From Pseudomonadota bacterium (lineage in GTDB: Bacteria; Pseudomonadota; Alphaproteobacteria; Puniceispirillales; Puniceispirillaceae): a stretch of DNA of 64,000 nt. A program made the position numbers and the translations under genes. Location of the stretch: the NCBI GenBank assembly GCA_027620495.1, contig JAQCEA010000013.1, forward strand, positions 1 to 64,000, written 5' to 3'. Positions 1,969 to 64,000 of this stretch are shown here, piece after piece. Position 1 is the first letter of the stretch; the number at the start of each line of letters is the position of its first letter. The notes under the pieces are model-generated. The model was not told where the DNA came from and searched no databases. It saw only the letters and a list, made by a program, of their open reading frames with translations.

Positions 1969-3678
1969 ATGCCGACAAAAATTTCCCGGAGCGCCTACGC
2001 TGACATGTATGGGCCAACCACTGGCGACAGGCTTCGCTTGGCGGATACAGATTTGATTATTGAAGTTGAACACGATCTTACACATTACGGTGAAGAGGTA
2101 AAGTTTGGAGGGGGCAAAGTCATACGTGATGGCATGGGTCAATCCCAAGTGACGCGGTTGGGTGGTGCGGTCGATACTGTAATCACCAACGCACTTATTA
2201 TCGATGTTTCAGGCATTTACAAAGCTGATGTGGGATTAAAGGACGGCTTGATTTGCGCCATTGGCAAGGCTGGCAACCCGGACACTCAAGCGGGCGTTGA
2301 TATTGTAATTGGGCCAGGAACTGAGGTGATTGCGGGTGAGGGACATATTCTGACTGCTGGGGGATTTGACAGCCATATTCATTTTATTTGTCCTCAGCAA
2401 ATTGATGATGCCTTGCATTCGGGGCTGACCACGATGCTTGGTGGTGGAACAGGCCCTGCACACGGCACTTTGGCCACAACCTGTACACCAGGAGGTTGGC
2501 ACATTAGTCGAATGTTGCAAGCAGCCGATGGCCTGCCGATGAACCTTGCATTTGCTGGCAAGGGAAACGCTTCAATGCCTGCGGCTTTGGAAGAGCAAGT
2601 CATGGCTGGTGCTTGCGCCCTGAAATTGCATGAAGATTGGGGGACAACGCCAGCTGCAATCGATACATGCCTGTCTGTTGCCGACGCCATGGATGTTCAG
2701 GTCATGATCCATACCGACACTTTAAACGAAAGTGGCTTTGTTGAGCATACTGTAAACGCGATGAAGCGTCGGGTAATTCATGCGTTTCATACTGAAGGGG
2801 CAGGCGGTGGCCATGCACCCGATATTATTAAGATTTGTGGCGAGCCATTTGTAATCCCCTCTTCAACAAACCCGACCCGTCCTTATACGGTCAACACATT
2901 AGAAGAGCATCTTGATATGCTGATGGTGTGCCACCATCTCGATAAATCTATCCCAGAAGATGTGGCGTTTGCTGAAAGCCGGATCCGCCGTGAAACTATT
3001 GCTGCCGAAGATATACTACATGACATAGGTGCATTTTCTATAATCGCATCGGATAGTCAGGCAATGGGGCGTGTTGGAGAGGTTATTATTCGTACATGGC
3101 AGACTGCACACAAGATGAAGATTCAGCGGGGAAGATTGTCAGAAGAAAACGGCGAAAATGATAATGAGCGTGTGAAACGCTACATCGCTAAATATACGAT
3201 CAATCCAGCGATTGCTCATGGCATTTCGGGCTATATTGGCTCAATTGCAGTCGGGAAACGGGCTGATTTGGTTATGTGGAAACCAGCCTTTTTCGGCGTA
3301 AAGCCCGAAATGGTTCTGTTAGGCGGCAGCATTGCAGTTGCACAAATGGGGGATCCAAATGCGTCTATTCCGACGCCACAGCCAGTTTATACCCGACCGA
3401 TGTTTGCTGCTTTTGGACGATCTGTTGAGCATTCAGCTGTCACATTTGTTAGTAGCGCAGCGCAAGCTAACGATATCAGGTCTCAGCTGGGTCTTGCAAA
3501 GACAACGCTACCTGTTTCCCATACACGTGATATTTCAAAGGCTGATATGATTTATAACAACCATTGCCCAGTAATTGATGTGGACCCGGAAACTTATGAG
3601 GTGCACGCCGATGGCATATTGCTAACCTGTGAGCCGGCGAGCGAATTGCCATTGGCACAACGTTATTTTCTGTATTAG
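1969..3678 (+). CDS. ureC: urease subunit alpha
   Basis: 569 aa; [30 protein letters not shown] (carbamylated Lys region), MVCHHLD active-site flap. Confidence 0.98.
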
Positions 3679-7916: not shown

Positions 7917-7970
7917 TCATACCCAAGAGCTGATCGAAGGGCCTTGAACAAATCCTGCCCCCGCAACCAT
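7917..7970 (+). repeat. 54-bp dispersed direct repeat, copy 1
   Basis: TCATACCCAAGAGCTGATCGAAGGGCCTTGAACAAATCCTGCCCCCGCAACCAT; same length and boundaries as three other copies. Confidence 0.95.
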
Positions 7971-15613: not shown

Positions 15614-15692
15614 GTTTCAATATGAAAACTGCACTTTTCGATTGTCAAGCTAAGTTGAAAATTTTTGAGTAACAGTAAATTGGTGTTGGAAA

Positions 15693-15746
15693 TCATACCC
15701 AAGCGCTAATCGTAGGGTCTTGAACAAATCCTGCCCCCGCAACCAT
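15693..15746 (+). repeat. 54-bp dispersed direct repeat, copy 2
   Basis: TCATACCCAAGCGCTAATCGTAGGGTCTTGAACAAATCCTGCCCCCGCAACCAT. Confidence 0.97.
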
Positions 15747-15756
15747 TTTTCTCACT

Positions 15757-19626: not shown

Positions 19627-19720
19627 TCTGCCTGATGATTTATTTGCGATACAGCCTCTATTTATGGGCGCGTCAAGCGTTTCTTTTTCAGAAAAGCTTT
19701 GCAACAGTTGCCAAAAAAAT

Positions 19721-19774
19721 TCATACCCAAGCGCTGATCGTAGGGTCTTGAACAAATCCTGCCCCCGCAACCAT
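19721..19774 (+). repeat. 54-bp dispersed direct repeat, copy 3
   Basis: TCATACCCAAGCGCTGATCGTAGGGTCTTGAACAAATCCTGCCCCCGCAACCAT; one difference from copy 2. Confidence 0.97.
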
Positions 19775-20047
19775 TGTTATTTGCACCCCCTCGCTTTTGG
19801 CCCGGGGGTGTTCGTTTTTTGGCTCTATGCCAAGCTTTAGCAAGGCCCCAAGCTCACCGTAGCGTTTGATTTTCAATTTCCCATTTTCTGGAACAAACTG
19901 CACCCGTTCGATCAACTGGCGGATGGCAGTGTTAGTATCGACAAAAATCATCGGGTCGGTTATGTCCAGTATATGGATAGTGGTAAAATGATCGTCAGTG
20001 TTTTGCACTGGTGAAGAATGACCCCGAGGTAGGTCATGATTAATCAA
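19721..20047 (-). pseudogene. C-terminal remnant of a serine site-specific recombinase reading into repeat copy 3
   Basis: IRQLIERVQFVPENGKLKIKRYGELGALLKLG matches the C-terminal pattern of large serine recombinases; continues in frame as ..GVQITMVAGAGFVQDPTISAWV across the repeat; no catalytic domain present. Confidence 0.7.
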
Positions 20048-20071: not shown

Positions 20072-22156
20072 ATGCTGGAACGAGAAATGGCTGTTTCGTG
20101 GCGAAAAGATGGGATTTATGGGTTTGTCGTGCTGGACAACCCGCCGGTGAATGCCATTAACCGCGAAATTCGGCAGGGCTTGTTAGAAGCTGTTGACTGG
20201 GCCGAAAGAGAAGGGCTTGAACGGGTCATTTTATCAGGTGCCGGGCCTGCCTTTGCGGCTGGTGCTGACGCCAAGGAATTTGATCGCGCGCCAGAGGCAC
20301 CGCATCTTCCAGATGTTTTAAATCGTATTGAGTCAAGCACGGTGCCATGGATTGCGGCCTTGCATGGTGCGGTTCTTGGCGGCGGTGCGGAATTGGCGTT
20401 GGCGTGCCGTTACCGTGTGGCCCGCAGTGACGCCAGTATTGGGTTTCCAGAGGTCATTTTGGGCCTTGTGCCGGGGGCTGGCGGCACGCAAAGACTGCCC
20501 CGCCTTGTCGGCCTTGGTGAAGCGTTGAATCTTGTGCCAACCGGCAAAGCCATCAATGGCAGGCAGGCCAAGGAGATTGGCCTTGTCGATGAAATTGATG
20601 ATGATCCGCTGGGTTTTGCGGAAATAACCAATGGGGAGTTGCTGGGTATGTCGGTTCCAGTTGGCGCGTTAAACGCTGGTGAGGTTGATGAAGCGCATTA
20701 TGAGTCGGCGAGCGTGCTTGCCAAAAAGCGGATGCGCGGACAAGTCGCACCTCTCAAAGCAATTGATTTATTGCGTGTCGCCCAGACCCAGACGCTAGAA
20801 GCAGGCATGAAGCGTGAGCGTGAAGTTTTTCTGGATTTGCGGCAGTCTGATCAAGCCCGAGCGCTTCGCCATATTTTTTTCGCAGAACGTGGCGCTAAAA
20901 TCCCATCTGATTTAAAGCCAGAGATGAAGATACCGGATCACGTTGCCGTTGTGGGTGGCGGCACAATGGGCGCGGCGATTGCTTATGCTTTTTTAAATAC
21001 TGGTGCAAAAGTTGTGGTTTTGGAGACTGACGCCGATGGTTTGGCGCGTGCGTCCACCAACATTGAGGCGCTGATCAGTAACAGCCTATCATCGGGCCGG
21101 ATTGATGAAACCGCGGCCAATGCGCGGCGTAATCAAATGACGCGAACAACAAATTACCAAGACCTTGCGGGCGTTGATCTTGCAATCGAAGCGGTTTTTG
21201 AGGATGGTTCTGTCAAGCAAAAGGTTTTGCGATCCCTTGAGGCGGCGTTGCGACCGGATGCTGTGATTGCGACAAATACATCTTATCTGGACGTCAATAT
21301 GCTGGCAGCTGCACTGGCTGATCCGTCACGTTTGATTGGTCTGCATTTTTTTGCCCCAGCCCATATCATGAAGCTATTAGAAATCGTCAAAGCCGAGATG
21401 GCGTCTCCAAAAGCACTAGCTGTGGGGTATGCGGTTGCAAAACGCCTTGGCAAAATTCCAGTCGTTGCTGGTGTATGTGACGGCTTTATCGGCAATCGTA
21501 TTTTGGCCCGCTACCGGGAAGCGGCTGATACCTTGCTCATGGATGGCTGTACACCATGGGACATTGACGAGGCGATGGTCGATTTTGGCTATGCGATGGG
21601 GCCGTATGCGGCACAGGATTTATCGGGTCTTGATATTGCCCATGCAAACCGCCGCCGGCAAGATGCTACACGTGATCCGGCGCGGCGCTATATCCCCATT
21701 GCTGATCAGTTGGTAGCGGCTGGGAGACTGGGGCGTAAATCCGGTGCTGGGTGGTATCAATACCCGGCAAATGGCGGCAGAGACATAGACCCGGCCATTG
21801 AGAAAATCATTTTACAAGCGGCGGCATCAGCTGGCATTGATCGCCGCGCCTTTACCCCATCTGACATTCAAAACCGGCTTGTGCTGGCGATGATTAATGA
21901 AGCGGCAAATATTCGTTTTGATGGCATTGCGGCAACAACGGCTGATATCGATCTTGTGCTGGTTCATGGCTATGGCTTTCCGCGTTGGCGTGGTGGGCTT
22001 TTGCATTATGCCGACCAGATTGGCGTTGACCGATTGCTGGCAATGCTCGGAATGTACGCGGCAGAAGACCCGCTTGTCTGGCACCCAAGCCCGGTGCTTA
22101 TCGATTGCGCTGAAGCCAAAATCAGTTTGGCCGACTGGCAAGCAGAAAATCATTAG
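20072..22156 (+). CDS. 3-hydroxyacyl-CoA dehydrogenase / enoyl-CoA hydratase fusion (FadB/FadJ-like)
   Basis: N-terminal crotonase fold (DNPPVNAINREIRQGL, GGGAELALACRYRVA) and HCDH domain (VAVVGGGTMGAAIAYAF, FAPAHIMKLLEIV). Confidence 0.94.
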   Translation: MLEREMAVSWRKDGIYGFVVLDNPPVNAINREIRQGLLEAVDWAEREGLERVILSGAGPAFAAGADAKEFDRAPEAPHLPDVLNRIESSTVPWIAALHGAVLGGGAELALACRYRVARSDASIGFPEVILGLVPGAGGTQRLPRLVGLGEALNLVPTGKAINGRQAKEIGLVDEIDDDPLGFAEITNGELLGMSVPVGALNAGEVDEAHYESASVLAKKRMRGQVAPLKAIDLLRVAQTQTLEAGMKREREVFLDLRQSDQARALRHIFFAERGAKIPSDLKPEMKIPDHVAVVGGGTMGAAIAYAFLNTGAKVVVLETDADGLARASTNIEALISNSLSSGRIDETAANARRNQMTRTTNYQDLAGVDLAIEAVFEDGSVKQKVLRSLEAALRPDAVIATNTSYLDVNMLAAALADPSRLIGLHFFAPAHIMKLLEIVKAEMASPKALAVGYAVAKRLGKIPVVAGVCDGFIGNRILARYREAADTLLMDGCTPWDIDEAMVDFGYAMGPYAAQDLSGLDIAHANRRRQDATRDPARRYIPIADQLVAAGRLGRKSGAGWYQYPANGGRDIDPAIEKIILQAAASAGIDRRAFTPSDIQNRLVLAMINEAANIRFDGIAATTADIDLVLVHGYGFPRWRGGLLHYADQIGVDRLLAMLGMYAAEDPLVWHPSPVLIDCAEAKISLADWQAENH

Positions 22157-22290: not shown

Positions 22291-23445
22291 ATGAAGAAAG
22301 TTTTTATGATCGCCGCAATGGCGACAGCCGTTGCGATGGCCCCAGCCAACGCAGAAACTGTTAAAATTGGTTATATGACCACATTGTCAGGGGGGGCTGG
22401 CATTATTGGCAAGCAAATGCAAAATGCTGTAGAGCTGGCACTAGAGCATAAAGGCGGCAAGCTTGGCGGCATGGACGCCGAAGTCATTTTTGTTGATGAT
22501 CAGCGCAAACCAGATGTGGCAAAACAGCTGGCCAATCGGTTGGTGAAAAGTGACCGTGTTGATGTGGTTGCTGGTGTCATCTGGTCAAATCTTCTGATGG
22601 CGATTCATAAACCCGTGACACGCGCTGATACATTGTTGATCAGCTCTAATGCTGGGCCATCACCAATTGCCGGTGAAGAATGCCATGAAAACTTTTTTTC
22701 TATGTCTTGGCAAAATGACCAGACCCCCGAAGCCATGGGCAAATATATGCAGGATGCCGGTATCAAATCGGTCTATCTGATGGCACCAAATTATCAAGCT
22801 GGCAAAGATATGCTGTCTGGCTTCAAACGCTATTATACCGGCGAAATTGCTGGTGAAGTTTACACCAAATTGGGACAAAGTGACTTTCAGGCAGAATTGT
22901 CAGCCTTGCGCGCTGTCGCACCGGAAACAACCATGGTGTTCCAGCCTGGCGGTATGGGCATTAATTTTGTCAAACAATGGAAACAAGCCGGCATGGATGG
23001 GGTGAGCAAGCTTTATCAGGTCTTTACCGTTGATGGTGTGTCTTTGCCAGCGCTAAAGGAAACAGCCCTTGGTATTTTGGGAACCCAATCTTGGTCGCCT
23101 GATCTTGATAACGACATCAACAAGAAATTTGTCGCCGATTACAAGGCAAAATTTGGCGGCTACCCATCATTCTATGCGGCACAGGCTTATGACACCATCA
23201 TGGCGGTTGACCATGCGATTACCACATCAGGTAGCAAAGATACCGACAAAATGCGGGCGGCGCTGGCCAAGGGCAATATCCCGACAACGCGTGGGGTGTT
23301 GAAAATGAACAGCAATCATTTTCCGATCCAGAATTTCTATCTTCGTGATACCGTTCTGGACGCTGATGGTGTTGTCACCTCAAAGGTTTTGTCGACAGTG
23401 TTTACTGATCATGCCGATTCATATGCGGCAAGCTGTAAATTCTAG
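22291..23445 (+). CDS. Liv-type ABC substrate-binding protein
   Basis: Sec signal MKKVFMIAAMATAVAMAPANA; VKIGYMTTLSGGAGIIGKQMQNAVELALEHKGGKLGG. Confidence 0.92.
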   Translation: MKKVFMIAAMATAVAMAPANAETVKIGYMTTLSGGAGIIGKQMQNAVELALEHKGGKLGGMDAEVIFVDDQRKPDVAKQLANRLVKSDRVDVVAGVIWSNLLMAIHKPVTRADTLLISSNAGPSPIAGEECHENFFSMSWQNDQTPEAMGKYMQDAGIKSVYLMAPNYQAGKDMLSGFKRYYTGEIAGEVYTKLGQSDFQAELSALRAVAPETTMVFQPGGMGINFVKQWKQAGMDGVSKLYQVFTVDGVSLPALKETALGILGTQSWSPDLDNDINKKFVADYKAKFGGYPSFYAAQAYDTIMAVDHAITTSGSKDTDKMRAALAKGNIPTTRGVLKMNSNHFPIQNFYLRDTVLDADGVVTSKVLSTVFTDHADSYAASCKF

Positions 23446-23526
23446 ATAGACCGCGATTGGCTGGCGGTGAACTGCCGCCAGCCGCACCCACCATGCCCGA
23501 AACGCCATTGTGACAAGGTCTTGTGG

Positions 23527-24447
23527 ATGACATTAACCCTTATCCTTGAACAGGCTTTTAACGGGCTACAGGCGGGCGTGACATTGTTTCTTGTTGCGGC
23601 TGGCCTCACCTTAATTTTAGGCATTATGGATGTTGTCTTTCTGGCGCATGGCGCACAGGTGATGATTGGTGCCTATGCGGCGGCGGCCATTGCCGCGGCA
23701 ACTGGCAATTTCTATATAGGGCTATTGCTGGCGGTCCCAGTGACCTTTGCCAGCGGCTATCTCTTAGAATTTTTGTTGATCCGGCACCTCTATCGGCGCG
23801 ACCATATGGATCAGGTGTTAGCAACTTTTGGTTTGATCCTGTTTTTTAACGAGCTGATCCGGATTGGGTTTGGGCCAGCGGCGCTCTATTCTGATTTGCC
23901 GCCATCATTATCTGGCTTTGTTGAAATTCTGCCGGGTACACCCTATCCGGTTTATCGTCTTGGGGTGATTCTGGTTGGCCTTGCCTGTGCTATTGCGATC
24001 CATATGTTTGTCTCGCGCACCCGTATTGGGGCGATGGTGCGGGCGGGGGCCAATAACCCGGAAATGACCGCCGCGCTCGGCATTAATATCAAGATTTTAT
24101 TTCGGTTTATTTTTGCCACCGGGGCCTGTTTTGCCGGTGTGGCTGGCATGATGCTGGGGCCGATCACCGCGGTACAGCCGGGGATGGGGGAACCGCATTT
24201 GATCCTGTCATTGGTGGTGATCATTATTGGCGGCATTGGGTCGGTGCGCGGGGCCTTTATCGCGGCCATTATTGTCGGGCTTGTTGATACATTGGGGCGG
24301 GTCTTTTTGCCAGCAATGCTGCGTCTGGTTGTTGATCAGGCAACCGCTGATGGGGCTGGCCCGGCAGTGGCGTCTATGCTGGTCTATATCTTAATGGCGG
24401 TGGTGCTTATTTTCCGGCCAACAGGCCTGTTTCCGGCAAAGGGGTGA
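23527..24447 (+). CDS. livH: Liv-type ABC permease (LivH)
   Basis: AGLTLILGIMDVVFLAHGAQVMIGAYAAA; start at ATG 23527. Confidence 0.92.
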   Translation: MTLTLILEQAFNGLQAGVTLFLVAAGLTLILGIMDVVFLAHGAQVMIGAYAAAAIAAATGNFYIGLLLAVPVTFASGYLLEFLLIRHLYRRDHMDQVLATFGLILFFNELIRIGFGPAALYSDLPPSLSGFVEILPGTPYPVYRLGVILVGLACAIAIHMFVSRTRIGAMVRAGANNPEMTAALGINIKILFRFIFATGACFAGVAGMMLGPITAVQPGMGEPHLILSLVVIIIGGIGSVRGAFIAAIIVGLVDTLGRVFLPAMLRLVVDQATADGAGPAVASMLVYILMAVVLIFRPTGLFPAKG

Positions 24448-24451
24448 TCCG

Positions 24452-25477
24452 GTGTCAGCCATTCGCGATTTTATTGGACTGGTAGGTGACGGGGTGAAAG
24501 CCAACCAGACTTTGTGGCTGTTGGTTTTCGGCTTTGCGCTGTTCCCGATCTTCAGCTATTTTGCCGATTTGCCATTCTGGAATGATGTGGCAATGCGGAT
24601 CATGCTGTTGGGGATGGCGGCAATGGGGCTGAATTTGGTCCTCGGCTATGGCGGTATGGTGTCATTTGGCCATGCGGCTTTCATTGGCATTGGTGCCTAT
24701 TGTGTTGGCATCAGCCAATTTTATGGCATCAGTAATGGCTGGGCGCATCTTGGTTTTAGTATTGTTACCTGCGGGCTGGCAGGGTTGGTGATCGGCTATC
24801 TAGCACTGCGTACCAGCGGTATTTATTTCATTATGATCACGCTGGCATTCGCGCAGATGCTGTTCTTTTTATTTGTGTCGCTAGAGGCCTATGGCGGTGA
24901 TGACGGCATGAGTGTCGACCGCGGCGAATTTGGCTTTATTGATCTTTATGATCCGTTGCGCCTGTATTTTCTGATTTGGTGCGCGCTGGCACTTGTCAGT
25001 TTGGCACTCATGTTTATCGTGCGGTCGCGTTTTGGGGTAACTTTGCGGGCCATCAAAAGCAATGAATCGCGGATCGAGGCGATGGGGCTGTCTCCTTTGC
25101 GGTTTAAAATGGTCGGCTATGTGATTTCGGCGGTGATTTGTGGGATCGCCGGTACATTATTTGCCAGCTGGCAGGAATATGTCTCGCCAGACATCATGCA
25201 TTGGACGCGGTCAGGCGAATTAATGATCATTATCATTCTTGGCGGGCTTGCCACGCTGGCTGGCCCCTTGCTTGGCGCGATTGTCTTTCTGCTTCTTGAA
25301 GAAAGCCTGCCGATGTTGCTTGGCGCGGTGGCTCCGGCCTATGCAGAAAACTGGATGATTATTTTTGGCCCCCTATTGATTATGGTCGTGCTGTTTGGTC
25401 GGGGTGGGTTGACCGGCATTATTGACCGTTTGTCTGGGACGCGGGGCAATGCAGATCACAAGGCAGGCCCGCGATGA
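24452..25477 (+). CDS. livM: Liv-type ABC permease (LivM)
   Basis: MGLNLVLGYGGMVSFGHAAFIGIGAY; AIKSNESRIEAMG. Confidence 0.92.
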   Translation: MSAIRDFIGLVGDGVKANQTLWLLVFGFALFPIFSYFADLPFWNDVAMRIMLLGMAAMGLNLVLGYGGMVSFGHAAFIGIGAYCVGISQFYGISNGWAHLGFSIVTCGLAGLVIGYLALRTSGIYFIMITLAFAQMLFFLFVSLEAYGGDDGMSVDRGEFGFIDLYDPLRLYFLIWCALALVSLALMFIVRSRFGVTLRAIKSNESRIEAMGLSPLRFKMVGYVISAVICGIAGTLFASWQEYVSPDIMHWTRSGELMIIIILGGLATLAGPLLGAIVFLLLEESLPMLLGAVAPAYAENWMIIFGPLLIMVVLFGRGGLTGIIDRLSGTRGNADHKAGPR

Positions 25478-26220
25478 GCCGTGCTGTATTAGAATTGCAG
25501 GGTCTTAATAAATCCTTTGGCGCGTTGCACGCCACCCGGGATTTATCTTTTTGTGTGAATGCCGGTGAAATTCACGCATTGATTGGACCCAACGGGGCCG
25601 GCAAGACAACCTTGATCCAGCAAATATATGGCGCGTTGAAGCCTGATACCGGGCATGTTTTGTTAAATGGCAAAGATATCACCAGCTTGCCGGTGCCTGG
25701 CCGGGTGCGCGCTGGCATTGGCCGGTCATTCCAAATTAGCAATGTGCTGATGGATTTTACCGTTTTGGAAAATGGCATCATTGCCGAACAAGCCCGTCTT
25801 GGGCAGAGCTTTCGGTTCCTACGTCCAGCCTTTGACGACCCAGACTTGATCGCGGGTGCGCGGAAAATTCTGGCTCGTGTCGGACTGAATGACCGCGCCG
25901 ACCAACGGGTTGGCGATCTGGCGCATGGGGAACGCCGAATGTTGGAACTGGCACTGGCGTTGGCAACCGCACCGCAATTATTGCTTCTTGATGAACCAAT
26001 GGCAGGGGCTGGCCCAGAAGAAAGTCAGCGCATGAGCCAGATCATAGAGACGCTTCGCGGCAAATTGGCGATCTTGTTGATTGAACATGATATGGATGCG
26101 GTGTTTCGCCTTGCAGACCGGATCACCGTGCTGGTTGAAGGTGCGGTGATTGCCAGTGGTACGGCTGATGAGATTAGTAATAGTGCGGCTGTGCAAACCG
26201 CCTATTTGGGAAGTGAATGA
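25474..26220 (+). CDS. livG: Liv-type ABC ATPase (LivG)
   Basis: GPNGAGKTTLIQQIYG; LAHGERRMLELALAL; LLIEHDMDAVFRLAD. Confidence 0.93.
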   Translation: MSRAVLELQGLNKSFGALHATRDLSFCVNAGEIHALIGPNGAGKTTLIQQIYGALKPDTGHVLLNGKDITSLPVPGRVRAGIGRSFQISNVLMDFTVLENGIIAEQARLGQSFRFLRPAFDDPDLIAGARKILARVGLNDRADQRVGDLAHGERRMLELALALATAPQLLLLDEPMAGAGPEESQRMSQIIETLRGKLAILLIEHDMDAVFRLADRITVLVEGAVIASGTADEISNSAAVQTAYLGSE

Positions 26221-26927
26221 CCATGCTGGACCTTCATAACATTGAAACTGGATATGGCGCCGGTAAAGTTCTGTTTGGTGTGTCGTTGTCAGTCACTGCT
26301 GGGGCCTGCGTGTCATTAATGGGGCGCAATGGCATGGGGAAAACCACAACGGTGCGTGCCATTATGGGGCAATTGCCGCTGACCAGCGGACGCATTAGCC
26401 GTTTTGGCGATGATCAGGACGATCGGTCATCATTTGAAATTGCCCGTGCCGGTATCGGGCTGGTGCCAGAGGGCCGACAGATTTTTTCTAACCTCACTGT
26501 ACGGGAAAATTTGCAAACATTTTACCGGATGCCTGCTGGCCAGACTGGTGCCGCGTGGCATCTTGACCGGGTGCTGGCGCTGTTTCCGCGTTTGTCCGAA
26601 CGTCTGGAACATGCGGGCAATCATCTGTCAGGTGGCGAGCAACAGATGCTGGCGATTGGACGGGCGTTGATGACCAACCCGAAATTGCTCATACTTGATG
26701 AAGCCACCCAAGGGCTGGCACCGATCATCCGCCAACAGATTTGGGATTGTTTGAACCAGTTAAAGCAAGATGGACAATCCATCCTGATTATCGACAAAAA
26801 TGTCGATGCCATCGCCAAACTTGCTGATCATATTTACATTCTCGATAAAGGCCGGGTTGTGTGGCATGGCGATTCAGACGCACTTTTGGCGACGCCTGAT
26901 TTGAAATCGCGTTATCTTGGTGTGTAA
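26217..26927 (+). CDS. livF: Liv-type ABC ATPase (LivF)
   Basis: GRNGMGKTTTVRAIMG; LSGGEQQMLAIGRALMTNPKLLILDEATQGLAP. Confidence 0.93.
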   Translation: MTMLDLHNIETGYGAGKVLFGVSLSVTAGACVSLMGRNGMGKTTTVRAIMGQLPLTSGRISRFGDDQDDRSSFEIARAGIGLVPEGRQIFSNLTVRENLQTFYRMPAGQTGAAWHLDRVLALFPRLSERLEHAGNHLSGGEQQMLAIGRALMTNPKLLILDEATQGLAPIIRQQIWDCLNQLKQDGQSILIIDKNVDAIAKLADHIYILDKGRVVWHGDSDALLATPDLKSRYLGV

Positions 26928-26957: not shown

Positions 26958-28181
26958 ATGATGGGGACAGGCAAAATGTTGGATGCTTTTATTTGTGACG
27001 CGATACGCACCCCCATCGGCCGTTATGGTGGTGGGCTGGCCACTATGCGGCCTGATGATCTGGCGGCACATGTCATCTGCACCCTGATGCAACGCAATCC
27101 GTCACTTGATCCATATGCGGTTGACGAAGTTGTTTTCGGCTGTGCCAATCAGGCTGGTGAAGACAATCGCAATGTGGCCCGCATGGCGTTGTTGCTTGCT
27201 GGTTTGCCGGTCGAGGTGCCAGCCAGCACCATCAACCGGCTGTGTGCATCTGGCATGGACGCCGTGGCAAGTGCGGCGCGCGGCATTATTGCAGGCGATT
27301 TTCAGCTTGCTATAGCTGGCGGCGTTGAAAGCATGAGCCGCGCCCCGTTTGTCATGCCAAAGGCTGAAACCGCCTTTGTTCGCAGTTACCAGATATTTGA
27401 CACAACCATTGGCTGGCGGTTTGTAAACCCGGCCATGCAGGCGATCTATGGCATCGATTCAATGCCGGAAACCGCCGATAATGTGGCGGTTGATTATGCC
27501 ATCAGCCGGCAGGATCAAGACGCTTTTGCCTTGCGGTCACAGCAACGCTGGGCAGTGGCACATAAAGCTGGCGTTTTTGCTGATGAGATTGCCCCTGTGG
27601 CGGTGCCAAAGCGCCGCGGAGAACCGGTCATCTTCGATACAGATGAGCATCCGCGCCCGCAAACGACAATCGAACAGCTGAAAAATCTTGATGGGGTGAA
27701 TGGGCCGGACTCTACCGTGACCGCTGGTAATGCGTCAGGTGTCAATGATGGCGCGGCAGCACTTTTGCTGGCATCTGAACAGGGCATAAACACCCACGGA
27801 TTGACGCCGCTTGCCCGTATTGTGGCAAGCGCAACAGCTGGTGTGCCGCCGCGCATTATGGGGATGGGCCCGGTACCAGCCAGCCAAAAGGCATTAAAAA
27901 AAGCTGGCCTCACCATTGATGATATTGATGTGATTGAAATCAACGAGGCGTTTGCGGCACAGGGCCTTGCTTGCCTCCGCGGGCTTGGCATTGCCGATGA
28001 CGCGCCGCATGTAAACCCAAATGGTGGGGCGATTGCGCTTGGTCATCCGCTTGGCATGTCTGGGGCGCGATTGGTGCTAACAGCGGCCTATGAACTCAAA
28101 CGCCGTGGTGGCCGCTATGCGCTCTGCACCATGTGTATAGGTGTGGGCCAGGGCATGGCATTGATTATTGAGGCCTGCTAG
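26958..28181 (+). CDS. acetyl-CoA acetyltransferase / 3-oxoadipyl-CoA thiolase-like
   Basis: NRLCASGMDAVASAARGI active-site Cys, GGVESMSRAPF, NPNGGAIALGHPLGMSGAR, CTMCIGVGQGMALIIEAC; start may be 26976. Confidence 0.94.
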   Translation: MMGTGKMLDAFICDAIRTPIGRYGGGLATMRPDDLAAHVICTLMQRNPSLDPYAVDEVVFGCANQAGEDNRNVARMALLLAGLPVEVPASTINRLCASGMDAVASAARGIIAGDFQLAIAGGVESMSRAPFVMPKAETAFVRSYQIFDTTIGWRFVNPAMQAIYGIDSMPETADNVAVDYAISRQDQDAFALRSQQRWAVAHKAGVFADEIAPVAVPKRRGEPVIFDTDEHPRPQTTIEQLKNLDGVNGPDSTVTAGNASGVNDGAAALLLASEQGINTHGLTPLARIVASATAGVPPRIMGMGPVPASQKALKKAGLTIDDIDVIEINEAFAAQGLACLRGLGIADDAPHVNPNGGAIALGHPLGMSGARLVLTAAYELKRRGGRYALCTMCIGVGQGMALIIEAC

Positions 28182-28264
28182 CGGACGGTGATTTGCGCCG
28201 CTTACTTTGATAGTCCCACACAACCTACCCACGCCATGGCCTTCAGTAAATCAACATGTTTGGC

Positions 28265-28710: not shown

Positions 28711-28764
28711 TCATACCCAAGCGCTAATCATAGGGTCTTGAACAAATTCTGCCCCCGCAATCAA
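28711..28764 (+). repeat. 54-bp dispersed direct repeat, copy 4 (slightly degraded)
   Basis: TCATACCCAAGCGCTAATCATAGGGTCTTGAACAAATTCTGCCCCCGCAATCAA. Confidence 0.95.
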
Positions 28765-44114: not shown

Positions 44115-44687
44115 TCAATGCGTTTGCAGTCCGGCAACACGATATAACATTGGCAAATAATGCTCTAACGGGGGCACCGCCAAACCGCTCACCTTGCCCT
44201 GATCATCACAGCGCCGGACAAGAACAATTCTGTCAAAGCCGGGAATGCTCTCAAAGGATTTGCATTCATCACCGCGCATCGGCCCACCTTGTAATGTTAA
44301 CGAATGTTTTGATGCCTCTGAAAGGCTGTCATAATAGGCTTGGTCAACAGCACAAAGATATCGTTTCGCCGCGACATGATGGCGAACACAATCCACAACG
44401 GTTTCAGGCAAAACCCCCTCAATCAATATCGCGCCGGCATCTTCATGCAAACGATCAGCGACATCGTCCATGGCAAAGGCCCCCAGTTCAGAGGTAAAAT
44501 GCCCCACATCATGAATAAGCGCGCCAATCACTGCGTCATCATCTCCACCTGCTTGAGAAGCAAAATAGGCGGATTGAAGCATATGCTCGCCAATGCTTAC
44601 CGACTCACCAAGATATTCTTCCGCACCATTGGTATGAAAAATAGTGATGATCCGGTCTATCACTTGGCGCCGTTCGTCTTCAGTCAT
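44115..44687 (-). CDS. HD-domain oxygenase, TmpB/PhnZ-like
   Basis: ESVSIGEHMLQSAYFA..AVIGALIHDVGHF...ADRLHEDAGAILIEG...VRHHVAAKRYLC; ATGA overlap with the upstream dioxygenase gene. Confidence 0.8.
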   Translation of the reverse strand: MTEDERRQVIDRIITIFHTNGAEEYLGESVSIGEHMLQSAYFASQAGGDDDAVIGALIHDVGHFTSELGAFAMDDVADRLHEDAGAILIEGVLPETVVDCVRHHVAAKRYLCAVDQAYYDSLSEASKHSLTLQGGPMRGDECKSFESIPGFDRIVLVRRCDDQGKVSGLAVPPLEHYLPMLYRVAGLQTH

Positions 44688-45838
44688 ACCGCTATGGTCT
44701 CCTTTTCCATGGCGGCAAGTGTTGAATAAAGCCCGTCCTTGTCGGGATAACATCCCTGAAGCCAACGCGAGCCTTTACCGCTATACCCATTGCGCGCATG
44801 CAATACTCTGGTGTTATCGACAACAAAACAATCCCCGGGTGCCAATTTGAAACTCACCTGCATTGAAACATCGTCTATAATCTCAGCAAACAAACGCCAT
44901 GCCCTGTAAAAGGGCTGCATATATTCATAGGGAATATCCGTCAGTGCGGCAGCCGACCGATTATTGAACCGGATGGTAATCACTTCACCATCTGGGGTGG
45001 TTTCGATCATTGGTCGCCGAGCGTGGAGGGAAACACCGGCACTGCCCTCATAGGAAAACCGCGCGCAATGACCCGCAAGGAGCGCAAATGCATCGGCATC
45101 TTGATCTGCCAAAACTTCGGCGGCACGAAAACCATCAACAACGATACTGGCACCGCCTTGTGCAGAGTTTTCAAGACAGTAGAGAATTTGCATCGATGGC
45201 ACCGGGTCACGGTATGGATTATCAGTATGCGCTTGAAGCCCAAGACCAGTATAGGCAAGATTGACCGGGTTAACTTCGGTTCTGACTTCAAACCATTTTC
45301 CGTAATTTGTTTCACGAACAAACCCAAAAAGGCCGGCAACATCCATCAATGCACCACTTTTGACCGGGCCATTTTCGAGTTTTGCAAATCCATATTTCCG
45401 TAGGTTGAAAAGCCAGCCATATAAGGAACGGCTGTCTGTATTGACCATGTCAAATTCTGCCGACGGCAAAGATTTGCCAAGGCGACCATCCCAAGTTTCG
45501 ACCCAATCAGCAAACCAGCAACTTCTTTTTGACCGGTCCTTATCATAACAATGCGACATCAGCCATGCTGGGTCATAGGCCACATCAAGATCACGGTCAT
45601 TAAATCGAATGATGATCCTGTTATCTGCAAATCGTGCACTGCAGATCACCACAGTTTCAGGAATGTCCTGAATGGTAATCAAACGCTGGCCATTACCAGA
45701 TGATTTGGTGGCATCATCATTGGCATTGTCCCGAAGCCAAATCGAATGGAAACGGGTGATCTGTCCATCTGACAGATGACAATTCAGGCTGCCGCCATTA
45801 TCTGCGATGGAAACCGCTTGGATAATCATGAACGTCAC
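44684..45838 (-). CDS. TmpA/PhnY-like 2-oxoglutarate dioxygenase (quaternary-amine phosphonate type)
   Basis: IWLRDNANDDATKSSGNGQRLIT; LQAHTDNPYRDPVPSMQILYCLENSAQGG; NTRVLHARNGYSGKGSRWLQGCY; coupled to the TmpB-like gene. Confidence 0.8.
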   Translation of the reverse strand: MTFMIIQAVSIADNGGSLNCHLSDGQITRFHSIWLRDNANDDATKSSGNGQRLITIQDIPETVVICSARFADNRIIIRFNDRDLDVAYDPAWLMSHCYDKDRSKRSCWFADWVETWDGRLGKSLPSAEFDMVNTDSRSLYGWLFNLRKYGFAKLENGPVKSGALMDVAGLFGFVRETNYGKWFEVRTEVNPVNLAYTGLGLQAHTDNPYRDPVPSMQILYCLENSAQGGASIVVDGFRAAEVLADQDADAFALLAGHCARFSYEGSAGVSLHARRPMIETTPDGEVITIRFNNRSAAALTDIPYEYMQPFYRAWRLFAEIIDDVSMQVSFKLAPGDCFVVDNTRVLHARNGYSGKGSRWLQGCYPDKDGLYSTLAAMEKETIAV

Positions 45839-45962
45839 TCACAATTGTATGTTCGTTGAGTATATCATCGAAATTGAAATTGCAAAGCGATCAGATATCA
45901 GCGTCAGCAAGGCCCCAAACAAAAAAGAGCGGTTTGAACTTGTTTCTTGCGAAGCGATGCCT

Positions 45963-46136
45963 CAACCCAACGGTGAAAGCTATTAACCACAACATTCAGC
46001 AGGGCTTGCTAGATGTTGTTGACAGGGCAAAAAGGAAAAGGCTTGAACGGGTCATTTTATCAGGTGCCGGGTCTTGCGTTGTGGCTGGTGCCATGTGTAT
46101 TGGCCTTGGCTAACGTATGGCACTAATTATAGAGGC
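45963..46136 (+). pseudogene. fusion relic: enoyl-CoA hydratase 5' fragment joined to thiolase 3' fragment
   Basis: 45963-46090 aligns gaplessly with 20137-20264 (128 bp, about 83% by hand count); 46091-46136 aligns gaplessly with 28129-28174 (46 bp). Confidence 0.85.
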
Positions 46137-46161: not shown

Positions 46162-47025
46162 CTAGCCATATAGCCGTGTTAAGCCGTCATAGAGGTCAAC
46201 CCGCCGGTCTCGAAACAACCCCCAGCTTGCCCGCTCGGTTCGCATTGCCGCAAAATCAAAATCGGCGACAGCTAGACCTTCGTCTGCATTAAGTTCAGCC
46301 AGTTTACCACCAGTTGCATCGGCGATAAAGGAGTGGCCGTAAAAATGCATGGTAATATCATCAATCACTTCTTGACCAATACGGTTGCTTGCAGCAAGGG
46401 CCACCATATTCGCCGCTGCATGCCCCTGCATCGTCCGCTGCCAATGGTCTTTTGAATTGATCTGAGGGCTTTCTGGCTCACTGCCAATTGCAGTTGGGTA
46501 CAAAAGAAGGTCTGCCCCCATTAATGCCATCGCCCGCGCACACTCTGGAAACCATTGATCCCAGCATATGCCGACGCCAATTCGGCCAGCAGCGGTATCC
46601 CATACCTTAAATCCGGTATCACCCGGACTAAAATAGAATTTTTCTTCATAACCAGGGCCTTGCGGCAGGTGGGATTTGCGATAGAGACCCAAAAGACTGC
46701 CGTCTGCATCTATCATCATCATTGAATTAAAATAGGCGTTTTCAACCCTCTCAAAAAAACTGATTGGACAGACAATATTCAGCTCTTTGGCCACGGCTGC
46801 AAAGCGCGGAATGAATGGGTGGGCGCTAGCCGGTGCGGCATAGTCAAAATAAGCCGCCTTTTGCTTTGGACAGAAATAGGGCGTTGCAAACAATTCCTGC
46901 AATAACACAATTTGGGCACCCTTCGCCGCTGCGGCACGAATCAACGTTTCTGCCTTTGCTAGATTGCTCTCAACATCCCAATCGCATCTCATTTGTGTTA
47001 TCGCAACACGCGTCAACTGGCTCAT
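46162..47025 (-). CDS. aguB: N-carbamoylputrescine amidase-like nitrilase-superfamily hydrolase
   Basis: VLLQELFATPYFCP, YRKSHLPQGPGYEEKFYFSPGDTGF, IGVGICWDQWFPECARAMALMGADLLLYPTAIG. Confidence 0.9.
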   Translation of the reverse strand: MSQLTRVAITQMRCDWDVESNLAKAETLIRAAAAKGAQIVLLQELFATPYFCPKQKAAYFDYAAPASAHPFIPRFAAVAKELNIVCPISFFERVENAYFNSMMMIDADGSLLGLYRKSHLPQGPGYEEKFYFSPGDTGFKVWDTAAGRIGVGICWDQWFPECARAMALMGADLLLYPTAIGSEPESPQINSKDHWQRTMQGHAAANMVALAASNRIGQEVIDDITMHFYGHSFIADATGGKLAELNADEGLAVADFDFAAMRTERASWGLFRDRRVDLYDGLTRLYG

Positions 47026-59970: not shown

Positions 59971-60022
59971 CATGTGTATTGGTGCTGGCCAAGGCGTGGC
60001 ATTGATTCTGGAGGCCTGCTAG
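59971..60022 (+). pseudogene. thiolase 3'-end relic
   Basis: ATG TGT ATT GGT GCT GGC CAA GGC GTG GCA TTG ATT CTG GAG GCC TGC TAG = MCIGAGQGVALILEAC*; gapless with 28130-28181. Confidence 0.75.
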
Positions 60023-60423
60023 GGGACAGTGCGGCACGCCATCTATTTCGATAGCCATTCAAAACAAAAACTAAATTCAATTAACTTCACAAAAATTCTT
60101 GTTTCTTCTGAAGTAAGATATTTTGTTTTAGTTCATCAATAGTCATTAAAGTCATAGCATTAAAATAGTACATGACGTCACCATTCTTCAGAAACCTTAT
60201 GAACTGGTCATACGCATTAACTGTTGTTCGCCGTTTCAAAACCTATTTTAGCAACAAAAAAATTAATTATATCAATACTTTATACTTCTCATAGATTTTT
60301 TTCTTGCAGAGGTTTTCTGTGTTTGGCGTTATGTATAGTTGAAAAACACTGTCAGGTTTTTGTGATCTTTAAAATCTAATATGCCTAATCCCTGTCAATG
60401 TCTTATTTTTGGGGCGTTGGTTG

Positions 60424-60882
60424 ATGAGTATCTCTCAATTCAAAACTTATCTGCAAACATATGTTCGGAATTGGTGCGAAGCTAATGGTCAGAGTATTGA
60501 CAACGGCAAGTCACGGGGACTGGCTTTTGAGAATTTTGTGTTTGAAACTCTAGTAAGCCGCTTTGAGTTAGATGGAGCTTCTATTGAAGAAAATGTATTT
60601 AGATCTGACGAGAGAGGTTTTGACATCATATTGCCACCGTCAGGCAATAGTGATTTTTTTATTGTTTGTCAGTGTGAAATGGGTGGTGCCATAATCGCGC
60701 GCCATCTTCATGATCGTATTTTTGAAAGATTCGAACAGGGGCAAGAGGCAGAGGGAAGCGGCCTTGGCCTTGCCATTGTAAAGGAAATTTGTCTCTTGCA
60801 TGGGGGTGAGGCCAGCTATAGCGAGGTTGGCGGGTGGGCCTGTTTTACCCTGACACTGCCGCAATCAGGCACGCGGGAATAG
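60424..60882 (+). pseudogene. chimeric ORF: AIPR/restriction-like N-terminus joined to histidine-kinase C-terminus
   Basis: N-terminus RGLAFENFVFETLVSRF..RGFDIILPPSGNSDFFIVCQCE, then IFERFEQGQEAEGSGLGLAIVKEICLLHGGEASY..GWACFTLTLP (HATPase F and G2 boxes without H/N boxes). Confidence 0.6.
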
Positions 60883-60921: not shown

Positions 60922-61389
60922 TTAATACACTTTGATTTCATAGCACCGACAGGCCGTGCGGCCATGTTTGCGCCCATAGATTTCCAGCCGGTGTTCGGTA
61001 AGCTCAAATCCCATTTCGCTGGCTATTTCCTCGATCAGCCGTTGCAGTTGCTGGCTTTTAAATTCATGGATTTGACCAGTTTCGACATCCATCAAATGGT
61101 CATGTTCCACACGTTTGATTTCAAACCGCGCCTTGCCATCGCCAACATCAAGTTTTTGGATGAGTTGATAATCTTCAAAAATACCCAAAGACCGGTAAAT
61201 TGATGCAATTGATATAGAGCTGTCTTTTTCCTTGCACCGCAAATAGATCGTTTCGACATCGGGGTGATCGGCCGCTTCTTCAAGCACCGTTGCCAGCAAA
61301 TGACGCTGGCTGGTCATTCTGATTCCAGCATGCGTGCATTTTTTGACAAAAGGCATGTCACCTTTTTTACGTGCTTTTGTGCCAGTCAT
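60922..61389 (-). CDS. Fur-family transcriptional regulator
   Basis: GIRMTSQRHLLATVLEEAADHPDVETIYLRCKEKDSSISIASIYRSLGIFEDYQLIQKLDVGDGKARFE. Confidence 0.9.
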   Translation of the reverse strand: MTGTKARKKGDMPFVKKCTHAGIRMTSQRHLLATVLEEAADHPDVETIYLRCKEKDSSISIASIYRSLGIFEDYQLIQKLDVGDGKARFEIKRVEHDHLMDVETGQIHEFKSQQLQRLIEEIASEMGFELTEHRLEIYGRKHGRTACRCYEIKVY

Positions 61390-61524
61390 AGTTTTAAACA
61401 CCATCTAGAAACGCTGATTCATTGTTGCATCAAAACATAATTTTGCAAAAATATATTGCAGCTTCATATGATCAGCCTAACCTTATGACACAAACGCCAT
61501 ATTTATCACCTTGGAGGTGCCGCC

Positions 61525-62379
61525 ATGCTTTCAAAAGAACAGGTCGAATTTTTCAACGCTAACGGTTATTTAGTGGTCGAAGATGCGGTCACGCCCGATC
61601 AATTAGATGCTTTGCGTCAAGATTTTGCCAATTGGGTGGAAGAAAGCCGCGACCATGATGAGGCATGGGGCGAGATCATCAATGGCAAGCCCAGATTTGA
61701 TGTGGAAAAAGGGCATTCTGCTGCCACACCCGCCTTGCGCCGGGTCAATGCACCCCATGAGGTCTCAGATGCTTATTTTAATGTCATGGCGGATAGCAAG
61801 ATGACCGATATGGTCGCTGATCTAATTGGCCCTGATGTGAAATTGCATCACACAAAAATCAACTCAAAATTGCCCGGATCGGCAACAGCGGTCAAATGGC
61901 ATCAAGATTTTCCATTCACACCGCATACCAATGATGATCTGATTACGGCACTTTTAATGGTAGATGAAGTAAATACTGAAAATGGCCCCCTGGAAGTTTG
62001 GGCGGATACCCACAACGGAACCATCCACACATTATGGCATGATGGCCAGTTTACAGGTGCGGTGAGTGACGAAATTACCGAACAAGCGTTACAAAAACGT
62101 ACCATTTGCACGGGTAAGGCCGGCAGTGTTTGTTTGATGCATACGCGCCTTTTACATGGGTCTGCACCTAATCGGTCCGACGCATCACGGACACTTTTCA
62201 TCTGCGTTTATAGTGCCGCTGATGCCATGCCTATTTCACCGTCACCTGTCCCCACCACGTATCAAGGGATGATCGTTCGCGGAGAAGATAAAGGCCTTGT
62301 GCGGTCAGTGGATTTTCATATACCCATGCCAAAATTGCCAGATGGCGCCTCTTTCTTTGACCAGCAGCAAAGAGGCTGA
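61525..62379 (+). CDS. phytanoyl-CoA dioxygenase (PhyH) family protein
   Basis: EQVEFFNANGYLVVEDAVTPDQLDALR; VKWHQDFPFTPHTNDDLITALLMVDEVNTENGPLEVWADTH; LLHGSAPNRSDASRTLFICVY. Confidence 0.88.
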   Translation: MLSKEQVEFFNANGYLVVEDAVTPDQLDALRQDFANWVEESRDHDEAWGEIINGKPRFDVEKGHSAATPALRRVNAPHEVSDAYFNVMADSKMTDMVADLIGPDVKLHHTKINSKLPGSATAVKWHQDFPFTPHTNDDLITALLMVDEVNTENGPLEVWADTHNGTIHTLWHDGQFTGAVSDEITEQALQKRTICTGKAGSVCLMHTRLLHGSAPNRSDASRTLFICVYSAADAMPISPSPVPTTYQGMIVRGEDKGLVRSVDFHIPMPKLPDGASFFDQQQRG

Positions 62380-62387
62380 GAAAACAC

Positions 62388-63506
62388 ATGACATTAGACC
62401 AAGCGCAAGAAGATCTTTTTTGTGCCATTGCCAATAATGAAAATCGAACACCGCATTCTATGCCCGGTTGGTATTATTCAGATCAGCAGCTGTTTGAATT
62501 AGAAAAAACCAAGGTTTTTGCTGATGGGTGGGTTTGCGTCGGCCACCAGAGCGAAATTTCCAAAACAGGTCAATATATAACAGCCACCATTGGTGATGAG
62601 CCGATCGTCATATTGCGTGATCGACAAAAGCAAATACGCGCCTTTTCCAATATTTGCCGACATCGCGGCATGACACTTGTCGACGGCAAAGGAAAGGTTA
62701 GTCTGTTAACCTGCCCGTATCATGCTTGGAGTTACCAGCTTGATGGCCAGCTTTATAAAGCGCCATACATGGACTCGGTCGAAGGATTTGATCCCACGCT
62801 TTGCGCCCTGCCAGAATTTAAACTGGAAGAATGGTTGGGATTTATGTTTGTTAACATTAGCGGTGTGGCAGCGCCGCTGGCCCCACAATTGGCTGATCTT
62901 GAGCCATTTTTGAAAAACTATCATCCTGAAGACCGCCATAGTACGCAGACCTGGCATGAAGAATGGCAAACCAATTGGAAAGCGCTTGTCGAAAATTTTA
63001 TGGAAGGCTATCACCTCTCGGTAACCCATGCGACAACGCTTGATTACATAACGCCCACAGAATTATGCGAAAAATTAGCCTCTGGAGACGGGTTTACCGC
63101 GTATCGATCTAACTATCGTCCATCATCACCGCAACGCCTGCCATTTCCAGCTGATCTGATACCGAAAGAGCAGCGGTCTTCAGTGCTGGTGAATATTTAT
63201 CCAAATTTTGTCATTACAGTTGGGCCAAATTGCGCGGTTTTTTTGATTTTATTGCCAGTTCGCGTTGAAAGTGTGGTGATCAAAATGGGCGTGCTCGTTC
63301 AAGATGGTGCAGATGATCTGGCGGAAACCAAAGCTTATATCGATCTTGCTCACGCGTTTAATGCAGAAGATAAAGCCACGCTTGAGGCCATACAGAAAAA
63401 CGCCAAAACGAGTTTCCGCCCCATAGCGCATCTTGCACCTGAAGCGTTTGAAGGTACGATTTGGGATTTTACGCGCCAAATGGCAAAATTAATGATAAGT
63501 AATTAA
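62388..63506 (+). CDS. Rieske non-heme iron oxygenase alpha subunit (glycine betaine/choline monooxygenase-like)
   Basis: CRHRGMTLVDGKGKVSLLTCPYHAW Rieske motif; NWKALVENFMEGYHLSVTH mononuclear iron site. Confidence 0.88.
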   Translation: MTLDQAQEDLFCAIANNENRTPHSMPGWYYSDQQLFELEKTKVFADGWVCVGHQSEISKTGQYITATIGDEPIVILRDRQKQIRAFSNICRHRGMTLVDGKGKVSLLTCPYHAWSYQLDGQLYKAPYMDSVEGFDPTLCALPEFKLEEWLGFMFVNISGVAAPLAPQLADLEPFLKNYHPEDRHSTQTWHEEWQTNWKALVENFMEGYHLSVTHATTLDYITPTELCEKLASGDGFTAYRSNYRPSSPQRLPFPADLIPKEQRSSVLVNIYPNFVITVGPNCAVFLILLPVRVESVVIKMGVLVQDGADDLAETKAYIDLAHAFNAEDKATLEAIQKNAKTSFRPIAHLAPEAFEGTIWDFTRQMAKLMISN

Positions 63507-63587
63507 GCAATACAGGCATGCGCGCAAATACTGGTTTTATTTGCGCCATTTAAGCTGGCAAGCAAAATAATATGATTGTTTGACGCC

Positions 63588-64000
63588 ATGACAGATCACC
63601 CCACAACCTTGTCAATTCTGCGTGACCTCATCGGGTTTCCGACGGTCAGCCGCGACCCCAACCGGGACCTGATTGATTATTGTGCCAGCTATTTAAAATC
63701 AATCGGCGCGTCAGTTGACATCATAACAGCCGAAGCGGGGCGCAAGGCCAACCTATATGCAACGATTGGCCCCCAGGATGTGCCGGGCGTGATGCTGTCT
63801 GGCCATACAGATGTTGTGCCGGTTGATGGTCAAGCCTGGTCAAAACCACCATTTGAAGCGGTGGTCGAAGACGGGCGGGTCTATGGGCGGGGAACAGCCG
63901 ATATGAAGGGGTTCGTCGCATCGGCATTATTTTGTGCCAGCAAAGCGGCAGATCGACAGCTAACAACGCCGTTGCATCTTGCCTTGTCACATGATGAAGA
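63588..64000 (+). CDS. acetylornithine deacetylase/ArgE-like M20 peptidase, truncated by window end
   Basis: ATG at 63588: MTDHPTTLSILRDLIGFPTVSRDPNRDLIDYCASYL..VMLSGHTDVVPVDGQAWSKPPFEAVVEDGRVYGRGTADMKGFVA; open at position 64000. Confidence 0.85.
   Translation, partial: MTDHPTTLSILRDLIGFPTVSRDPNRDLIDYCASYLKSIGASVDIITAEAGRKANLYATIGPQDVPGVMLSGHTDVVPVDGQAWSKPPFEAVVEDGRVYGRGTADMKGFVASALFCASKAADRQLTTPLHLALSHDE

Follow-up and report, generated by a model that had tools for sequence, protein, structure and literature searches.

The window, by which we mean the whole stretch of 64,000 nucleotides that was analysed, carries a scar of 174 bases (45963-46136) between two working genes. To its left lies a TauD-family (TmpA-like) gene (44684-45838, minus strand; Pfam TauD) and to its right an aguB-like carbon-nitrogen hydrolase gene (46162-47025, minus strand; Pfam CN_hydrolase), the last gene of a cluster running from 56577 to 46162. 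The scar consists of two relics, both on the plus strand. The first (45963-46091) derives from the 5' part of fadB and corresponds to 20137-20265, approximately codons 22-64 of that gene. The second (46091-46136), joined to it in frame, corresponds to the 3' end of a thiolase gene at 28129-28174.

The match of 45963-46090 to 20137-20264 is gapless, with 106 of 128 positions identical and a 32-nt exact block within it. In a self-comparison of the window, blastn extends it to 46091/20265 (107/129, E about 1e-31). The thiolase part shows 35 identities in 46 positions and, taken alone, reaches an E-value of only 0.005. It abuts the fadB match base to base with the frame continuous, and none of about 2,900 random 46-mers from the window scored above 28 against the thiolase, compared with 35 for the relic. 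Both halves thus have significant homology to intact parent genes that this genome still carries. The two abutting matches had been reported in an earlier note on this DNA, and both are borne out.

Across the junction the translation reads VAGA and then MCIGLG, a stop codon and RMALIIEA. The thiolase counterpart is TMCIGVGQGMALIIEA, and alignment of the scar tail to the intact thiolase, MCIGVGQGMALIIEA, places the stop codon at the Q of the MCIGVGQG motif. With both ends truncated and a stop inside the thiolase motif, coding capacity has been lost. The scar is a dead relic, much reduced in size, of another copy of the fadB...thiolase cluster, which serves the breakdown of fatty acids and amino acids, and we can see no present function for it. 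Decayed duplicates and deletion scars are of an ordinary kind, and this one is real but nothing unusual in type. It shares truncated gene ends, neutral substitution, a new stop codon and a deleted middle with the classic pseudogene or deletion scar but, unlike in a typical deletion scar, both end genes of one cluster survive here as a fused, in-frame stub.

The parent cluster begins with an intact fadB (20072-22156, plus strand), the parent of the 5' relic, which encodes an enoyl-CoA hydratase / 3-hydroxyacyl-CoA dehydrogenase (Pfam ECH_1 and 3HCDH). There follow livJHMGF (22291-26927, plus strand), with relatives that are 71-90% identical, and an intact Liv-linked thiolase (26958-28181, plus strand; Thiolase_C match), the parent of both the tail at 46 kb and a second one described below. 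No trace of Liv DNA remains at 46 kb. On the minus strand at 19721-20047, overlapping a tRNA-fMet-like repeat at 19.72 kb, is the C-terminal relic of a large serine recombinase, recognised by its homology (38% over 71 aa) to an open reading frame of genome G004 (L243:808-1725). The latter is a longer homologue with the recombinase zinc ribbon PF13408 and likewise ends in VAGAG.xQDPTISxWV. The genome G003, a single contig, has several similar recombinase endings between 1.17 and 1.27 Mb. Elsewhere in the window, an Rfam scan gave a sole match, to the 5'ureB small RNA (2121-2410, minus strand, 98.6 bits), an antisense match over the 5' portion of the gene for the alpha subunit of urease.

Left of the scar, 45900-45937 (plus strand) is a probable relic of the DNA upstream of fadB, matching 19833-19869 inside the recombinase relic. 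Its local score of 16 is reached by 0.15% of random 124-mers from the window and by 0.46% of random targets, giving an overall p of about 0.0015-0.005. This is suggestive only, but the duplicated copy may have carried its upstream flank too. The earlier note had missed both this collinear piece and the thiolase tail at 60 kb.

Each half of the scar is closest to the Liv-linked cluster. The fadB relic has 104 of 126 positions in common with the window's own fadB, against 73-77 of 126 with the nearest relatives. It also retains a few bases that are common to relatives and have been lost from the fadB at 20 kb, so that it is a sister of that gene rather than a derivative of its present sequence. 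Among the thiolases compared, the Liv-linked ones match the tail best (35/46 for the copy at 28 kb, 35/46 for G001 and 33/46 for G011), and the tail belongs to their clade. The earlier note had allowed that other paralogues might match better; those in this genome match worse (29, 24 and 23 of 46) and were ruled out as the source of the tail. A canonical fadB-fadA pair was also ruled out, the fadB half being the sister of the gene at 20 kb, which itself shares only about 30% identity with the other FadB family.

Over 42 codons, 5 synonymous and 17 nonsynonymous differences separate the fadB relic from its parent. Since dS (0.18) and dN (0.21) are similar, the relic evolves neutrally, as expected without selection. 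Between this genome and its nearest relative, G011, dS is 0.39-0.55 (thiolase, PhyH and fur), and synonymous sites in the fadB genes of relatives are saturated. The duplication is therefore probably younger than the split from G011, recent and lineage-specific, a dating that rests on five synonymous differences.

Gene order in the genus bears directly on what was copied. In all ten same-genus genomes with readable order (G002, G003, G004, G006, G007, G008, G009, G012, G013 and G015) the arrangement is liv-thiolase-...-fadB: fadB follows the thiolase at a distance of 1 to 22 kb, with both genes on one contig and one strand, and the liv genes precede the thiolase wherever the contig extends that far. 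G014 has the liv-thiolase run, with fadB on another contig. Among genomes with readable order, fadB-liv-thiolase is seen only in the present one, so the relic requires a copy of the local arrangement and not of the ancestral one.

The site itself is also particular to this lineage. The earlier note had proposed looking for an intact module here in related strains. The flanking TmpA-like and aguB-like genes are absent from same-genus relatives but occur in other families of the order, a distribution that acquired blocks would be expected to show. They are adjacent in none of 136 genomes of the order. None of the 136 has the module at this site, in either an intact or an intermediate state. Given that the flanks are lineage-specific, this says little.

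A second orphan thiolase 3' tail of 61 bp lies at 59971-60031 (plus strand; 85% identity to 28130-28190, E 4e-12) and includes 9 bp beyond the thiolase stop codon. Left of it there is no similarity to fadB or thiolase. No further copies of the tail were found in this genome; a possible trace at contig position 68.8 kb was dismissed as it sits in unrelated sequence. Both orphan tails begin at the same thiolase base (28129/28130, with starts at 46091/46092 and 59971), a coincidence that random deletions do not explain. All three tails (28, 46 and 60 kb) point in the same direction and mark the borders of two stretches, 28.2-45.9 kb and 46.2-59.9 kb, that we infer to be newly acquired catabolic blocks. 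At least two such scars, at 46 and 60 kb, sit at borders of this kind. The second block comprises aguB, hdac, an OYE-like gene, polyamine ABC genes and an aldehyde dehydrogenase, a set of genes that is also conserved in a different family of the order.

To the right of the tail at 60 kb, positions 60923-64000 are collinear at 89.7% with contig C3 of G011, where the counterpart sits 24 kb downstream of the thiolase with different genes in between. In both genomes, then, what lies between the thiolase and the fur block varies. The G011 assembly has a completeness of 59%, and its contig starts within the thiolase gene. Between the tail and this collinear region, 0.4 kb from the former, lies an open reading frame (60409-60882, plus strand) in which a C-terminal histidine-kinase ATPase domain seems to be joined to an unrelated N-terminal part. 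The N-terminal part may resemble AIPR-type proteins. The frame may possibly be another collapse stub.

As to how the cluster copy at 46 kb shrank, the fused ends comprise fadB up to codon 64 and the last 16 codons of the thiolase, with about 7.9 kb of the parent sequence missing. At the junction the two parents share about one base, which is consistent with illegitimate recombination. A search with the scar region in 136 genomes of the order revealed a clear parallel in G022 (contig C12, L275:1271-1595), an independent collapse of a cluster from the start of its first gene to the end of its last. There, a polyamine-transporter ATPase gene breaks off after its first 80 or so codons (E 5e-38) and continues without a gap into the final 41 codons of aguB (E 5e-15), with about 10 kb lost. 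These are the first and last genes of the cluster that occupies 56577 to 46162 in the window. The fusion in G022 is out of frame, whereas that at 46 kb is in frame. Beyond G022, no further stub fusing a 5' to a 3' end was found in about 1.06 Mb of relatives' sequence, and we accordingly make no claim that such stubs are common.

The reading that we favour, and hold to be probable, is that the scar began as a duplicate at a block border, left behind while a genomic island was growing, and later collapsed. Growth of the island would have involved a duplication, in direct orientation, of the segment comprising the recombinase relic, fadB, the liv genes and the thiolase, with the result that the two incoming catabolic blocks were flanked by copies of the module or of its end. 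Only the copy at 20-28 kb would have remained functional. The copy at 46 kb would have lost its 7.9 kb, probably through one illegitimate-recombination deletion, its ends then drifting neutrally, and the copy at 60 kb would have shrunk to the thiolase tail. A possible route is single-crossover insertion of circular DNA carrying the module, which would explain direct copies at block borders. We infer the loss of the Liv genes, the single deletion and the coupling of duplication to block acquisition; that the lost middle held Liv genes follows from the order of the 20-28 kb cluster. The earlier note's picture of a full module copy between the TmpA-like gene and aguB that later collapsed thus stands as regards a fadB...thiolase copy in the order of that cluster, its Liv middle coming from the order alone.

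A bolder and distinctly tentative extension of the border-duplicate reading is that the module, or the thiolase 3' end, could serve as a repeated landing border for incoming catabolic blocks in this group. Each acquisition would then add a copy of the border, and deletions running from one end gene to the other would remove the surplus copies. The stubs left behind, with the 5' part of a first gene fused to the 3' part of a last gene, would preserve the sequence in which blocks arrived.

The earlier note had gone further in a different direction, treating the scar as independent evidence for a module that is moved or duplicated whole. Here the direct repeats of the window have to be considered. 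Four of them, 53-61 bp long, lie at 7917-7970, 15690-15750, 19718-19778 and 28711-28763 and end in CAAATCCTGCCCCCGCAACCA, which resembles the 3' end of tRNA-fMet; the identity of the tRNA is suggested in part by a partial tRNA-like sequence on contig C28. They delimit cassettes with isochorismatase-like and Liv-type ABC genes (7.97-15.69 kb), an Lrp-like regulator and putA (15.75-19.72 kb), and fadB-liv-thiolase with an ectoine-synthase-like gene (19.78-28.71 kb). The repeat has more copies elsewhere in this genome, on contigs C20, C28 and C41.

Two known systems invite comparison. In the fGI-2 of Methylophilaceae, recurring repeats of a tRNA 3' end, there of tRNA-Lys, mark the limits of additive flexible genomic islands (PMC10872708). 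The metabolic cassettes of the window, fadB-liv-thiolase among them, are delimited in a like manner but, unlike in fGI-2, the scar at 46 kb has no such repeat and the recombinase relic is of the serine type. Tycheposons, the tRNA-flanked cargo elements of Prochlorococcus, have been reported with tRNA-Met in Methylophilaceae (PMC10872708). As in the present case, their cargo consists of nutrient and catabolic genes and has partial tRNA sequences at its borders; they differ in that no tyrosine recombinase was seen in the window, which has the serine-recombinase relic instead. The 53-bp repeats fit the additive-island pattern, but this is a matter apart from the scar.

It could nevertheless be argued that the fadB-liv-thiolase cassette, with its 53-bp repeats at 19.72 and 28.71 kb, is mobile and inserted autonomously between the TmpA-like and aguB-like genes before collapsing. 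The framing of the 20-kb module by tRNA-fMet-3'-like direct repeats together with the serine-recombinase relic, and the likely piece of upstream DNA left of the scar, are in keeping with such an insertion. We consider it unlikely, as a search of 45.4-46.5 and 59.5-60.4 kb turned up no 53-bp repeat (p above 0.15), the next block has a second tail at its far end, and the fadB-first order is missing from relatives. The claim of movement as a unit falters on much the same points: the order is seen only in this genome, the framing repeats are missing at 46 and 60 kb, and the second tail, the siting of tails at the borders of blocks and the synteny between 60.9-64 kb and the sequence downstream of the G011 thiolase point to a duplication tied to growth between the thiolase and the fur block.

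Quite unlikely, in our estimation, is site-specific integration at the thiolase 3' end, with the tails at 46 and 60 kb as displaced att sites of two tandem elements inserted at 28.13 kb. The three tails in direct orientation, the start base shared by the orphan ones and their position at block borders are what such integration would produce. Yet no integrase was recognised by inspection among the block ORFs (window ORFs of at least 100 aa), the recombinase relic at 19.7-20.0 kb lies outside the blocks, and the 24-kb insert of G011 lacks a second tail. The fadB fragment directly left of the tail at 46 kb would, moreover, have to be a coincidence.

Two unrelated events might instead be supposed, namely a resident fadB remnant at its ancestral place downstream of the thiolase and a separately arrived thiolase tail. 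In relatives fadB indeed lies 1-22 kb downstream of the thiolase in the same orientation, roughly the place of the relic, and the bases that the relic shares with them to the exclusion of the 20-kb fadB point the same way. Such a history would require the end genes of one module to meet by an exact, base-to-base, in-frame junction, and the upstream piece matches the rearranged arrangement at 20 kb; we regard it as improbable. Chance or an assembly artefact, to which only the E-value of the thiolase part taken alone lends any colour, can be dismissed almost entirely in view of the E-value of the fadB part (1e-31), an adjoining tail above all random controls, and the 17% divergence from the parent, which makes a mis-assembled repeat very unlikely.

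Read as a border duplicate in a growing island, the scar taken alone is one decayed duplicate. If stubs of this kind regularly mark the borders of blocks, they would constitute a readable record of how catabolic clusters are gained and erased in these genomes without obvious mobile-element genes.
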